Part shown: positions 23,591 through 38,209 of the stretch, one piece after another | Numbering within the stretch: position 1 is the first letter of the stretch | Layout: each line of letters opens with the position of its first letter | NCBI GenBank assembly: GCA_017624955.1 | Contig: JAGAMA010000016.1 | Coordinates: 1 to 38,304, forward strand | Reading direction: 5' to 3' | DNA length: 38,304 nt | DNA from: Alistipes sp. | GTDB lineage: Bacteria > Bacteroidota > Bacteroidia > Bacteroidales > Rikenellaceae | Made by a program: the position numbers and the translations under genes | Notes under the pieces: generated by a model | What the model saw: only the letters and a program-made list of their open reading frames with translations | What the model was told of the DNA's origin: nothing | Databases searched by the model: none

Positions 23591-24448
23591 CTATAGGCCA
23601 TACCGCGAACGGCAATAGAACCAAGGGTTGTGCAGGTTCTCCTCGTTGTATTTCAAAGCCCTCTCATCGGGCAGGGTACGGGTCATACCGCCCGCCTCCG
23701 AGAGAATCAACTCACCGGCCGCCGTATCCCACTCGTAGGTGTGGGTCGTGCGCACATAGTAGTCGGCCGTACCCTCGGCCAACATGCAGAACTTATAGGA
23801 CGAGCCCTGCTCGACAATCTCCAAATCGGGATGCTCGGCGCGCAGATTATCGATGTGGGCATAGGTCTCCTCGGTGCGGTGACGGCGCGAAAGAGCCACG
23901 CGGAAGTTACGCTCGGGGCGCTCGGCAGCAAGGGGCAACGGAGTCCAATCGGCAACAATCTGCATATAGGTATAGTCCGCCTCGGAGGTAGGGGCCACGC
24001 CTCGCTTAAGGAAAGCGCCTCGGCCCTCGCCCGCCAGGTACATCTTCTCAAAATAGGGAACATAGATCACCGCCGCTATACAGCGATTGTTCTCCATAAG
24101 GGCAATATTGACCGTAAATTCGTTATACCCCTCGATAAATTCGGCCGTACCGTCGAGCGGGTCCACCAGCCAATACAGTTCCCAATTTCGACGCTCGTCA
24201 TAGCGCATTTCGCGGCCCTCCTCGCTCAAAATCGGAATGCGGGTATGGCCCAACGCCTCACGAATGGTACGATGCGCCGTGCGGTCGGCCAATGTAATGG
24301 GTGTTTTATCGCTTTTGAGCGAGATGTCATAGTCATCCTTGTTGCCGTGTATCTTCATGATGGCCGCTCCGGCACGGACGGCAGCGTTGAACATAGCAGG
24401 CAGCAGGTAGGTATTGACCTGGGTATCAATCATGGTTTCAGGGTTCAT
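23591..24448 (-). CDS. cysQ: 3'(2'),5'-bisphosphate nucleotidase, CysQ-like
   Basis: Inositol-monophosphatase-fold enzyme that hydrolyses 3'-phosphoadenosine 5'-phosphate to AMP, clearing the by-product of sulfate activation and sulfotransfer. The 285-aa product has LSEEG (74-78) for the metal-binding glutamate, VDPLDGTAEFI (95-105) as the family signature and YEWDTAAGE (238-246) with the third metal aspartate at D241. FIEGYNEFTVNIAL fits CysQ better than SuhB. A second in-frame ATG lies at 24433. A near-consensus TAACTTTA on the minus strand at 24464-24471 may be its -7 box. No other sulfate-assimilation gene is in view. Confidence 0.92.
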   Translation of the reverse strand: MNPETMIDTQVNTYLLPAMFNAAVRAGAAIMKIHGNKDDYDISLKSDKTPITLADRTAHRTIREALGHTRIPILSEEGREMRYDERRNWELYWLVDPLDGTAEFIEGYNEFTVNIALMENNRCIAAVIYVPYFEKMYLAGEGRGAFLKRGVAPTSEADYTYMQIVADWTPLPLAAERPERNFRVALSRRHRTEETYAHIDNLRAEHPDLEIVEQGSSYKFCMLAEGTADYYVRTTHTYEWDTAAGELILSEAGGMTRTLPDERALKYNEENLHNPWFYCRSRYGL

Positions 24449-24553: not shown

Positions 24554-25420
24554 CTATAATGGCTGCAACTCCCCGTCCAATTGGCGAAGACGCAACCAAA
24601 CAAGCGCGAGCCATCCGAGCGTGGCAAGGCCGACTACGAGGGGATACCATTGCCCCACCTGCAGACTCCGCGCCACAAGCAGCACCGCCACCGCGCCCAC
24701 CACCGACCACCTCATGCGCACCTTCCGTCGTCCGCCCCGACTTAAGGGCGACTCCCAAAGCAGGATGCGATGGGGTGCGGCAACCACCGAGAGAGGCCGG
24801 CAGGAAAAACCGCCGACCCGCACAAGGGCGGTGCGTCGCCACACGAGGGTGGTGAAGGTCGGTAACAGGCAGATTTGGTCCACGCTATCCAACGGTCGCA
24901 AAGCCAACTCGGTCACCAGCCGCTCCACTGCACCCTTCAGTGGCTCACGTCCTCCGACCAACGGCATCAGGTAGTCGTAGGAGGCCACATCGGCCGCAGC
25001 ATCGAGTCGTGCGGCAGGCTGTTCCGCCCGACAATCCAGCACGACAAGACGACGAAAACGACGTTTGCGCGAACGATACAGCCCCCGCACACCGCGCACC
25101 GCGAATTCCTCCGAGGGGTGCCAGTTGACCTGAATCAGGTGGTAGCGGGCCATCAGTCGTTCGATAAGCAACGCTTCGCATCCACCATCCACCACGGCCA
25201 CCACCTCGAGGTGGTCATACTCCACCCCCAGCAGACGCACCAACCGCTCCTCATCCACCCCGTCGGCCACGAGGAGCGAAAGCCCCAACCCGAAGGTGCC
25301 GTTACGAGCCCCGTGCATACGGTCGAGCCATCGACGACGCTGGCGGGCCTCCTCGCGCTTTCGCCATCCATACAGCACAGCCACGGCCATCAGCCACAAA
25401 AGCAACCAAATCAAGACCAT
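24554..25420 (-). CDS. Degenerate GT2-like membrane protein (pseudo-glycosyltransferase)
   Basis: A 288-aa protein with one N-terminal transmembrane helix (about 2-18), a cytoplasmic domain and two C-terminal helices (about 238-252 and 258-277). The middle resembles the family-2 glycosyltransferase GT-A fold: LSLLVADGVDEERLVRLL (47-64), LEVVAVVDGG (71-80, for the usual V-V-D-D-G-S), and RRTALVRVGGF (195-205, for the usual F-R-R-x-x-x-x-x-V-G-G-F). At the DxD position it reads DYLMPLVGG (149-157), with no aspartate pair, and no QxxRW is seen. It may therefore not transfer sugars. Its start overlaps the preceding gene by 10 bp. Function unknown; the fold call is by pattern only. Confidence 0.65.
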   Translation of the reverse strand: MVLIWLLLWLMAVAVLYGWRKREEARQRRRWLDRMHGARNGTFGLGLSLLVADGVDEERLVRLLGVEYDHLEVVAVVDGGCEALLIERLMARYHLIQVNWHPSEEFAVRGVRGLYRSRKRRFRRLVVLDCRAEQPAARLDAAADVASYDYLMPLVGGREPLKGAVERLVTELALRPLDSVDQICLLPTFTTLVWRRTALVRVGGFSCRPLSVVAAPHRILLWESPLSRGGRRKVRMRWSVVGAVAVLLVARSLQVGQWYPLVVGLATLGWLALVWLRLRQLDGELQPL

Positions 25421-26352
25421 ACGAGCGTAGTTTTATAGGTTTCGACCAACGCTTCATAGCGCACTCGCTGCCGTTCGCTCCACAGCCTTTTCACCTGCGC
25501 AGGGGCGTAGCCCTCACGGGCCATGTGTCGCATCAATACACCCCGCTCGGCCGCAGTGAGCCGTTCGATACACTGCCTGATTGCCTTGCCACGCAACGGA
25601 CGGTGGAGGGCGCAAAGGGTGTAGAGGGCCGCCAGCGAGAGTTCGGCATCCTCCGTCGAGGCGATTAGGCGGAGCAGCCCTTCATCGGCCTCCTCGATGC
25701 TGAACTCATGCACAATCAACAATCCAAGGCGTTGCAAATTGCGGTTTCGGGACTCCAAAAGCGGTTGGTAGGCGATGGGGAGCAGGCGACGACGCAACAG
25801 ATGCAGCACCTCGCTCACCTCGCAGAGTGTCATCGGTTTATCGCACGATGCCACCAGGCGCAACGCATCCTGCGGATAGGCCGAGAGGCGGACGAGCAGG
25901 GCCGAGAGCCGCACCTCGGGCGAGGGGTCAAGCAGCCACTCCTCACACGCCGGCTCCACACGGGGCATCGGGGGCAAATCGCCCCACAATTTCAAGGCCC
26001 AGGCTCGTTTTAGTCCCCGACTGCGTTTCACCTGCCAAACGAGCCACCTATCGACGCCCCTCTGCTCCAATTTGCGGGTCAAGGGGGCGGGTGCGCACCC
26101 ATAGAGGGAGGCATGAACAGACGCCACCAACTCGGCCAAAAGTTGTTGCGCATGAACGGTATGCTCCACCGAGAGGGGACGCGGAGACTCCTCCAAAAGC
26201 CCCTGCACCAACTCTCCGGCCGACCGTTGCAACAGCAACTGCTGGCGTGGCCGACGACGCTGCTGCATCCACCCCGCAACGAGGTTCACCGTCAGCCACA
26301 CTCCGCTTCCGGCAAGAAGCATCATATAGCCCCAAAAACACCATTCGTTCAT
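25411..26352 (-). CDS. Membrane-anchored helical-repeat (HEAT-like) protein, function unknown
   Basis: A 313-aa protein starting at the ATG at 26352, which overlaps the previous stop as ATGA. One transmembrane helix (about 7-27) is followed by a basic stop-transfer (QQRRRPRQQ) and then about 270 residues of leucine-rich paired helices. LLDPSPEVRLSALLVRLSAYPQ (D-P-S-P-E-V-R-L-S-A-L is a classic HEAT-type turn) and TEDAELSLAALYTLCAL are the clearest repeats. Such scaffolds usually bind partner proteins. The frame is open upstream to 26469, but that part overlaps the receiver-like gene. Its place between the receiver-like and GT2-like genes suggests an adaptor joining the two (inference). Confidence 0.65.
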   Translation of the reverse strand: MNEWCFWGYMMLLAGSGVWLTVNLVAGWMQQRRRPRQQLLLQRSAGELVQGLLEESPRPLSVEHTVHAQQLLAELVASVHASLYGCAPAPLTRKLEQRGVDRWLVWQVKRSRGLKRAWALKLWGDLPPMPRVEPACEEWLLDPSPEVRLSALLVRLSAYPQDALRLVASCDKPMTLCEVSEVLHLLRRRLLPIAYQPLLESRNRNLQRLGLLIVHEFSIEEADEGLLRLIASTEDAELSLAALYTLCALHRPLRGKAIRQCIERLTAAERGVLMRHMAREGYAPAQVKRLWSERQRVRYEALVETYKTTLVWS

Positions 26353-26711
26353 CGCTCCAACGCCGTTATCACCTTCCCTCGCAGTCGTGCCAGATTGAGC
26401 GGAAAGGTCATGTATTGGTCCACCCCGCTCTCCAGCAAGCCGAGTACCGTTTCGTCGGCCTGATGCCACGCCAGGACATAGATTTCGGGCTTGTGCAAGG
26501 GGCGCGGACGGACCCTTCGAAACAGTTCGCGGCCACTCCAGAAGGGGGCCACGCCTACGACCAACACCAAATCAAACACCATCCGTGCGGCAAGTTGCTC
26601 GAACCGCTCGTAATTCTCCGCCGAGCGAATCTCTGCACCCAGCCCCTGCAAAGCCACCCGTACCAGCTCCGTGAGGAGCCTGTCGGCCGAATAGATTAAC
26701 ACACGCGCCAT
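26349..26711 (-). CDS. Degenerate receiver-domain protein (pseudo-response regulator)
   Basis: A stand-alone CheY-like domain of 120 aa from the ATG at 26711 (a TTG one codon upstream is also possible). The fold pattern is clear: RVLIYSADRLLTELVRVAL, then FDLVLVVGVAP, then a VLGLLESGVDQYMTFPLNLARL end matching the usual L-x-x-G-A-D-D-Y-L-x-K-P-F. The phospho-acceptor aspartate is replaced (V52 in DLVLVVG), the acidic pair is reduced to one D, and the conserved lysine before the proline is F103. It therefore cannot be phosphorylated in the standard way. It has no output domain. It is the first gene of a three-gene coupled unit, divergent from rplU. Confidence 0.7.
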   Translation of the reverse strand: MARVLIYSADRLLTELVRVALQGLGAEIRSAENYERFEQLAARMVFDLVLVVGVAPFWSGRELFRRVRPRPLHKPEIYVLAWHQADETVLGLLESGVDQYMTFPLNLARLRGKVITALER

Positions 26712-26845
26712 CAAAAGGTCTGTTCAAGGAGCAGAACAACGGTCGAAAAGCGTGCCAAAAACCGATGCAGGGCGGCCGTCGGCAGGCGAAAAGGCGTTCC
26801 GACCCACCCAACGGCCCAAAAGAGGCGAAAAAAGTTTGCGGATTG

Positions 26846-26877
26846 TTTGTTTATGAAATAAAAAGCCTCTATATTTG
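26846..26877 (+). promoter_or_regulatory. rplU-rpmA promoter
   Basis: TTTG (26846-26849) as the -33 box, a 20-bp spacer and TATATTTG (26870-26877) as an exact -7 box, 40 bp before the rplU ATG. This is one of the clearest promoters in the window. Confidence 0.88.
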
Positions 26878-26916
26878 CAGTCCAAATTGTGTTTTTAACA
26901 CGAACTTTTTAATTCA

Positions 26917-27228
26917 ATGTACGTTATCGTAGAAATCGCAGGTCAGCAATTTAAGGCTGAGAAAGGTCGCAAGCTCTATGTTCACCGTCTCCAGGGCGAG
27001 GTAGATTCGTCCGTTAGCTTCGACAAGGTCCTGCTCGCAGACAACGACGGTCAGGTTAAAGTAGGTGCACCTGTAGTAGAAGGCGCCTCGGTTAAGTGCA
27101 AAATCCTGAAGCACCTGAAGGACGACAAGGTCCTGGTCTTCAAGAAGAAGCGTAGAACTGGTTATCAGAAGTGCAACGGTCACCGTCAGTACCTGACCCA
27201 GATTCTCGTGGAGGAGATTGTTGCGTAA
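26917..27228 (+). CDS. rplU: 50S ribosomal protein L21
   Basis: A 103-aa large-subunit protein that binds 23S rRNA with L20. The N-terminus [17 protein letters not shown] and the C-terminal [19 protein letters not shown] (R-x-G-Y/H-R-Q motif) are diagnostic. It starts 27 bp before rpmA, in the near-universal rplU-rpmA pairing. Codon use and GC are close to those of neighbouring genes. Confidence 0.99.
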
Positions 27229-27255
27229 GTTAAACCTTAAAAAACTGAAGAAAAC

Positions 27256-27516
27256 ATGGCACACAAGAAGGGTGTAGGTAGTTCGAAGAACGGCCGTGAG
27301 TCGGAGAGCAAGCGACTCGGTATCAAGTTGTTCGGCGGTCAGTTCGCTAAGGCCGGCAACATCATCGTCCGCCAGCGTGGTACGGTTCACAACGCCGGTG
27401 AGAATGTAGGTATGGGTAAGGACCACACGTTGTTTGCCCTCGTTGACGGAACGGTTTCGTTCTGCAAGAAGGGTGAGAACAAGTCCTATGTAAGCGTACT
27501 GCCCCTGGCAGAGTAA
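27256..27516 (+). CDS. rpmA: 50S ribosomal protein L27
   Basis: An 86-aa large-subunit protein whose N-terminus reaches the peptidyl-transferase centre. It starts directly as [16 protein letters not shown], followed by [24 protein letters not shown], so there is no Firmicutes-type cleavable N-terminal extension. It is co-transcribed with rplU and followed by a strong terminator. Confidence 0.99.
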
Positions 27517-27702: not shown

Positions 27703-28326
27703 CTACTCCTGAATAGTCGGCAAATTCATTTGCTGATTTTTTAAACTTTCGTTTTCAGCTTTTAGTCGTTCGATTTCTTCTTGCATATTTTGAATTTCCT
27801 CATTAGGGGCTTCTATCTTTTTTACTGGAGTTTTCAATAAGTATTCATTTTTTTGCCACTCCGCATTTGTCACAGACATCAATTCTTTCCGTAAGCATAT
27901 TTTTATCATTCTGGTGCATGCTTTCCAATATGCATTAAATCCAGTGAACTCATGAGCTCTACCCACAGTTTTAGAACCTACCCATAATACTTTCCCGTCA
28001 ACGGTACTAACCGCGGGTTGTATAAACATACGCGCTCCGTATGAAATGGAGAAGCCTGGTCCTTTCTTTTCCACTTCTACGTGCAACACAAAATCCGCTT
28101 CTTCAATATTAGGAACCAATTCCCATCTACCCCAAATCTCACCATTTGTCAAAGCGCGAACTAAAGGTTCATCTTTTTCCTTAATATTGCCTCGGACATC
28201 CACGAAATCCAAATACGCCTTTTTACCGGGAGCCGTTAGCTCTCGCAATAAATCATTTTGGCACAGAGCCACTTGCGAGAGTACGCACATCAATACAACT
28301 AAAAAACAAGTCCGTAACTTAACCAT
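27703..28326 (-). CDS. Exported protein with C-terminal coiled coil, function unknown
   Basis: I do not recognise a family. The 207-aa product has a signal peptide (hydrophobic about 7-20, ending near ALCQ at 20-23), a compact middle region (about 35-155; FVDVRGNIKEKDEPLVRAL, ADFVLHVEVEKKG, SYGARMFIQPAVSTVDGKVLW) and a charged coiled-coil tail (about 173-199, EEIQNMQEEIERLKAENESL). The middle has the strand pattern of small periplasmic lipoprotein-like beta domains, and the cysteine at 22 could be lipidated, though the lipobox is poor. Its base composition is visibly more AT-rich than its neighbours. It starts 12 bp after the rsmA stop, so it may be read with rsmA. Codon use suggests recent acquisition. 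Confidence 0.72.
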   Translation of the reverse strand: MVKLRTCFLVVLMCVLSQVALCQNDLLRELTAPGKKAYLDFVDVRGNIKEKDEPLVRALTNGEIWGRWELVPNIEEADFVLHVEVEKKGPGFSISYGARMFIQPAVSTVDGKVLWVGSKTVGRAHEFTGFNAYWKACTRMIKICLRKELMSVTNAEWQKNEYLLKTPVKKIEAPNEEIQNMQEEIERLKAENESLKNQQMNLPTIQE

Positions 28327-38135: not shown

Positions 38136-38209
38136 GGTCGCGTAGCTCAGTTGGATAGAGCAGCAGCCTTCTAAGCTGCCGGTCGAGCGTTCGAGCCGCT
38201 CCGCGATCA
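38136..38209 (+). tRNA. tRNA-Arg (anticodon UCU)
   Basis: A full cloverleaf: acceptor GGTCGCG with CGCGATC (one G-T pair), D-arm GCTC...GAGC, anticodon stem GCAGC/GCTGC with loop CTTCTAA giving anticodon TCT, variable loop CGGTC, T-arm GAGCG-TTCGAGC-CGCTC, discriminator A. It reads AGA and AGG codons. CCA is not encoded and must be added after transcription. Confidence 0.97.

Follow-up and report, generated by a model that had tools for sequence, protein, structure and literature searches.

We have analysed a coupled module of three genes in a 38,304-nucleotide stretch of DNA from Alistipes sp. (contig JAGAMA010000016.1; the window), encoding a receiver-like protein, a HEAT-like protein and a glycosyltransferase-like protein. 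Judged by sequence, the trio is a disarmed copy of the receiver, transmembrane (TM)-HEAT and family 2 glycosyltransferase (GT2) core of other Bacteroidota operons. Computation across related genomes establishes its descent, the loss of both active sites, the inheritance of the three genes together, their loss as a unit and the purifying selection acting on them. As an explanation of the whole, we consider it probable that the products form a vertically inherited, non-catalytic inner-membrane complex that acts by binding.

Gene layout and loss of both active sites

All three genes lie on the minus strand. The receiver-like gene (26349..26711, 120 aa; an alternative TTG start is possible 3 bases upstream) encodes a single-domain pseudo-receiver, and its stop overlaps the start of the HEAT-like gene (25411..26352, 313 aa) in an ATGA at 26349..26352. 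The end of the HEAT-like gene in turn overlaps the start of the pseudo-glycosyltransferase (pseudo-GT) gene (24554..25420, 288 aa) by 10 bp at 25411..25420. The overlapping, leftward arrangement described in the initial annotation agrees with the sequence. Related loci were collected in a named set of 43 (Alistipes, Rikenellaceae and, once, Bacteroidales); in 40 of these, with start codons picked by script, the receiver-HEAT junction overlaps in 30 and the HEAT-GT junction in 34. Upstream, the module is flanked by divergent plus-strand genes at 26917..27516, which the initial annotation named and we also take to be rplU-rpmA and which serve as a locus marker. The minus-strand gene downstream, at 23591..24448, is presumably CysQ/inositol-monophosphatase-like. 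rplU is matched alongside the module in 42 of the 43 named loci and the CysQ-like gene in 39. Within window 26712-26930, a TAnnTTTG motif, which corresponds to the -7 consensus of Bacteroidota, is directed towards rplU at 26870; upstream of the module, the minus strand of this interval has no such motif. Elsewhere in the window, a minus-strand frame at 27703-28326 has a signal-peptide-like start and a coiled-coil-like C-terminus with sub-threshold Pfam matches only (e.g. DivIC, ZapB), and the sole Rfam match at gathering threshold is a plus-strand tRNA at 38136-38209.

The window receiver matches Pfam Response_reg above the cut-off (6.6e-8). Five residues constitute the canonical receiver active site, an acidic pair, Asp, Thr/Ser and Lys, and at these positions the window protein has S, A, V, A and F. 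None of 65 Rikenellaceae receivers keeps all five residues and none keeps more than two; the phospho-Asp is present in one (L049) and the Lys in none, bearing out the earlier suggestion that the phospho-site had been lost. Pseudo-receivers (PsRs) have been defined as receivers by profile in which at least one of the five residues is missing, and ALRs as those without the Asp (PMC12632262). By sequence, the window protein falls within both classes and outside the canonical receivers, sharing with PsRs and aspartate-less receivers a fold recognised by profile and the absence of the phospho-Asp and further active-site residues. According to the same review, the Asp is commonly replaced by Glu (PMC12632262); the module receivers differ in having Leu, Val, Ile or Ala, which are small or hydrophobic, at this site in 54 of 65, in consisting of a single domain and in sharing an operon with a dead GT. 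Conservation is 3.03 bits over residues 73-104 versus 1.64 bits over residues 1-60, and the second half of receivers bears the alpha4-beta5-alpha5 surface (PMC12632262). The PHROGs match of the window receiver is a family of unknown function, which fits a generic receiver. A fully supported branch (100/100; long branches) sets the pseudo-receivers (20 rows) apart from the other receivers, which are poorly resolved, so that one origin is visible and the nearest donor is not.

The HEAT-like protein of the window matches Pfam HEAT only below threshold (0.018), and HEAT_2 is matched by four of 43 family members. Across 272 columns (98.7%), N-terminal hydrophobic stretch included, the family profile aligns with the Pfam-positive HEAT proteins of active operons; the putative HEAT identity derives from these relatives. 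Short matches to designed Armadillo chains were also obtained. The TM segment was judged by eye only, and a scaffold role is proposed for the protein.

For the window GT-like protein, Pfam gives no glycosyltransferase match. Its identity comes from relatives and from the family profile: Glycos_transf_2 is matched by seven of 41 aligned members (best 2e-5), and the profile matches both active GT2 proteins (98.6%, 129 columns) and the solved family-2 GT 6yv7 (6.1e-5). DxD, ED and QxxRW are all present in 17 of 17 active relatives, whereas none of 67 pseudo-GTs keeps any of them at the aligned positions, so that the absence of DxD noted initially holds throughout. Short forms have lost most of the region in which ED and QxxRW would lie, and a QRRRW string near the N-terminus, found in the window and L003 only, lies off the aligned QxxRW column. 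The third protein thus appears to have a GT2-derived fold and falls outside the motif definition of GT2 processive synthases. The Asp of the first motif (D78 in the window) is kept in 59 of 67 pseudo-GTs and the second Asp (D129) in 61, and only the pseudo-GTs have near-invariant arginines at positions 116, 123 and 124 (window numbering). GT2 membrane synthases of the PgaC/BcsA type have a GT-A N-terminal half, an N-terminal TM and C-terminal hydrophobic segments. The pseudo-GT shares these features and differs in being shorter (258-435 aa in pseudo-GTs versus 468-644 aa in active GT2s) and in lacking DxD, ED and QxxRW. A simple hydropathy scan of the window protein gives segments at 1-19, 238-256 and 258-276, the number of TM segments originally assigned. 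C-terminal segments number four in active L035 and none in L031, L046, L049 and L050; a general loss of membrane segments in pseudo-GTs was rejected, as the window protein has two at its C-terminus but so have active L096 and L101. As with the receivers, the pseudo-GTs (21 rows) are separated from the rest by a branch with full support (100/100; long branches), and among the three module genes the pseudo-GT diverges fastest.

Related operons with an active core

The HEAT profile matches 13 of 295 genomes at the level of the order (the window's own and 12 others) and 5 of 296 at that of the phylum (its own and four others), counts that are low partly because the profile was built from Rikenellaceae. 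Eleven of the 12 order-level loci (L096-L106) were examined and a GT2 stands beside the HEAT gene in 11 of 11, matching the active profile at 1e-119 or better. A receiver is present in the same stretch in 10 of the 11, the contig of the eleventh (L102) ending there, and in L101 the receiver, HEAT and GT2 genes follow one another with nothing between. Of the four phylum-level loci, three were examined, all outside the order (L231-L233; two of the same class and one of another), and the three genes stand in a row in 3 of 3. A CHASE3 hybrid kinase with Hpt adjoins the trio in L231, and the order in L232 is hybrid kinase, a further gene, receiver, HEAT, GT2, sulfatase-family and YaiO genes. In Pfam searches, neighbours in L098 gave YaiO, TPR and a weak Hpt match below the cut-off, and L103 gave a sulfatase-family gene.

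These operons (L096-L106, L231-L233) contain the same three families as the module, consecutively in L101 and L231-L233, and their homology to it spans the HEAT protein and the GT's N-terminal half. In contrast to the module, the GT2 motifs are intact in all tested and the receiver has all five active-site residues in nine of ten, a count from which L107 and L108 are excluded. Extra YaiO/TPR, Hpt-like, kinase and sulfatase-family genes are often present, none of which is in the window module. No YaiO-like gene was seen in the window between rplU and the CysQ-like gene, and with its dead GT the trio falls outside the YaiO/TPR synthase-dependent exopolysaccharide operons. The core operons are kinase-linked and exopolysaccharide-synthase-like, and from gene content only their ancestral product would be an exopolysaccharide. 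The initial annotation knew of no described function for the combination. This stands insofar as no published description or name for a receiver/TM-HEAT/GT2 operon core was found in the open-access literature, itself weak evidence of absence, but the combination is not confined to the module, being the core of other Bacteroidota operons.

The exceptional receiver, at L101:5494-5850, has Glu for the phospho-Asp and Asn in the acidic pair, yet adjoins an active GT2. A receiver change is therefore possible without GT loss, and this receiver may represent a half-way state. A receiver match was rejected as a pointer to the operon, since L107-L109, chosen by receiver match alone, have no HEAT or GT2.

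A second HEAT-GT2 arrangement, this one active, is found in a small number of Rikenellaceae genomes (L035, L037, L038, L039, L040); a TPR gene that weakly matches YaiO follows it in L035 and a DUF4838 gene in L037. Descent of the module from same-family active GT2 operons (L035, L037-L040, L047) is not favoured, the HEAT profile missing all four loci counted (L035, L037, L038 and L040); it matches 11 of 11 order-level HEAT proteins. An earlier profile hit the L035 HEAT weakly (0.0033), and the GT tree leaves this descent unsettled. The family active GT2 profile matches seven of 150 family genomes, six of them sources of its rows, and has no match in the window genome (93.5% complete). Three genomes, G127, G032 and G101, combine an active GT2 with all or part of the module, which is decaying in G101.

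Distribution, loss and selection

Receiver, HEAT and GT are matched side by side in 42 of the 43 named loci, one of which (L154) has its GT cut by a contig end, and this gene order is beyond chance. In the sole exception, L171, a contig ends inside the module, the receiver is absent and the GT reads as two ORFs. Carriers of the module include A. montrealensis and A. muris. Twenty larger family stretches comprise 14 with the module and six with an active GT2; synteny is kept in 14 of the 14, with rplU in 13 and the CysQ-like gene in 13. The conserved synteny predicted for a module in the initial annotation is thus observed, and the three genes were not found singly and scattered in relatives.

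A search with the GT-like protein matches 64 of 150 same-family genomes at E 0.01 or better, a count that takes in active GTs and a few weak matches. The HEAT profile at 1e-6 matches 106 of 180 same-genus genomes (46 of 70 among good assemblies), with open frames in most and no stop inside any match listed. Among the other genomes of the genus, 39 of 39 that the GT search hit at 1.6e-5 or better were also hit by the HEAT profile, the GT hit in G101 coming from an active GT, and there are no HEAT matches in the 20 listed same-genus genomes without a GT match. rplU was sought in these 20 genomes and in G129 and G142, which have weak GT hits with stops only, and was found in 20 of the 22. Fifteen module-less rplU stretches contain no trio protein at 1e-3, indicating that the three genes are lost together. 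Fourteen of the 15 retain the CysQ-like gene, at 242-676 bp from rplU between aligned parts; beyond rplU, L213 has a TrkA-like gene only.

Presence and absence placed on a quick tree of 59 CysQ-like proteins give nine changes, at least four of them forced by well supported branches, and such repeated loss indicates that the module is dispensable. Reduced copies are also seen: G101 has an open receiver, a truncated HEAT and no GT match at the module, G447 a receiver and, next to masked bases, part of the HEAT gene, and G468 receiver and GT matches together with a HEAT frame that is shortened. In eight of ten inspected other-genus Rikenellaceae loci, a GH31-like protein is encoded between the pseudo-GT and the CysQ-like gene (L048:4863-6431, the one examined by Pfam; similar ORFs in L032, L034, L036, L041, L042, L043 and L044). 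A small DUF4286-like ORF also lies there in L036, L043 and L048. Neither is in the window.

Over 33 loci, the distances of the module genes correlate with those of the CysQ-like gene (Mantel r 0.82-0.85), a sign of vertical descent. Correlations within the module (0.82-0.88) are hardly above these, and a residual correlation of 0.39-0.60 is seen among the three genes when the CysQ-like gene and rplU are controlled. dN/dS (Nei-Gojobori) was computed for the 22 pairs with the most similar HEAT proteins. It was undefined in one pair; in the other 21, 63 of 63 ratios over all three genes lie at 0.02-0.54. These ratios are rough, as dS often approaches or exceeds 1. The closest pairs, with dS up to 0.36, agree (0.02-0.43). 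Thus, the trio is not simply decaying. A mobile or defence origin was rejected: the HEAT protein has no match in plasmid and phage collections and none of the three proteins in PADLOC.

A probable non-catalytic membrane complex and its alternatives

From these relationships we infer a complex, its interfaces, an ancestral mechanism and a regulated target. In the ancestor, receiver phosphorylation would have been passed via the HEAT protein and so have switched the synthase. Rikenellaceae have lost the phospho-site, the catalytic residues of the GT and the ED/QxxRW stretch, but the genes stayed coupled and under purifying selection. The pseudo-receiver would dock on the HEAT scaffold through its conserved C-terminal half, and the scaffold would hold the pseudo-GT in a standing inner-membrane complex, which would act not by chemistry but by binding, its partner being a nucleotide or a further envelope-glycan enzyme. 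This appears the best reading because the genes are kept by selection and lost together while switch and catalyst are both dead; binding roles are suggested by retention of one receiver half and of the nucleotide-side half of the GT. The adaptor-like, non-enzymatic role originally put forward is likewise the best fit to co-inherited genes that have lost both active sites. A dead signalling protein, the tyrosine pseudokinase EcpK of Myxococcus xanthus, is a proposed scaffold in polysaccharide biosynthesis (PMC12004946). EcpK differs in being kinase-like and acting on a Wzz-type copolymerase, the trio having a dead regulator and a dead GT.

It is conceivable, if rather unlikely, that the relay has become a nucleotide-sugar sensor, in which the pseudo-GT would report UDP-sugar supply via the HEAT protein and pseudo-receiver to envelope-glycan enzymes, ligand binding replacing phosphorylation. 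This would follow from the retained first-motif Asp (59 of 67), second Asp (61 of 67) and lineage-conserved arginines, which belong to the nucleotide-side half of the pocket. The same two Asp residues, and the existence of GT-A enzymes without DxD, would also suit a protein that is still a transferase through other, metal-independent chemistry. We regard this as very improbable, as none of the 67 has DxD, ED or QxxRW where the alignment places them, the ED/QxxRW region is largely deleted in short forms, and the QRRRW of the window and L003 only is N-terminal and not in the aligned column.

A slowly decaying remnant, whose operon function was lost in the Rikenellaceae ancestor and whose genes are drifting away, would account for the repeated losses, the reduced or partial copies in G101, G447 and G468, the split GT of L171 and the spread of pseudo-GT lengths (258-435 aa). 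It is improbable, however, given dN/dS below 1 in 63 of 63 ratios, frames open in most of the 106 same-genus matches with no stop inside those listed, conserved gene overlaps and a clade of single origin that extends through the genus into further genera of Rikenellaceae. Least likely of all is that the trio serves its CysQ-like neighbour in nucleotide or sulfur metabolism, e.g. surface sulfation. That gene is nearby in 39 of 43 named loci and in 13 of 14 other module-bearing stretches, and sulfatase-family genes occur in two tested active loci (L103, L232), but it persists in 14 of 15 module-less stretches and is separated from the module by a GH31-like gene in eight of ten inspected other-genus loci.

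A 2025 review calls the on/off switching of pseudo-receivers a mystery (PMC12632262). The module belongs to a natural matched pair, in which a related HEAT partner occurs with an intact receiver and an active GT2 in some operons and, in a common gut genus, with both dead. With such matched natural versions, what the receiver and GT still do without chemistry becomes testable.
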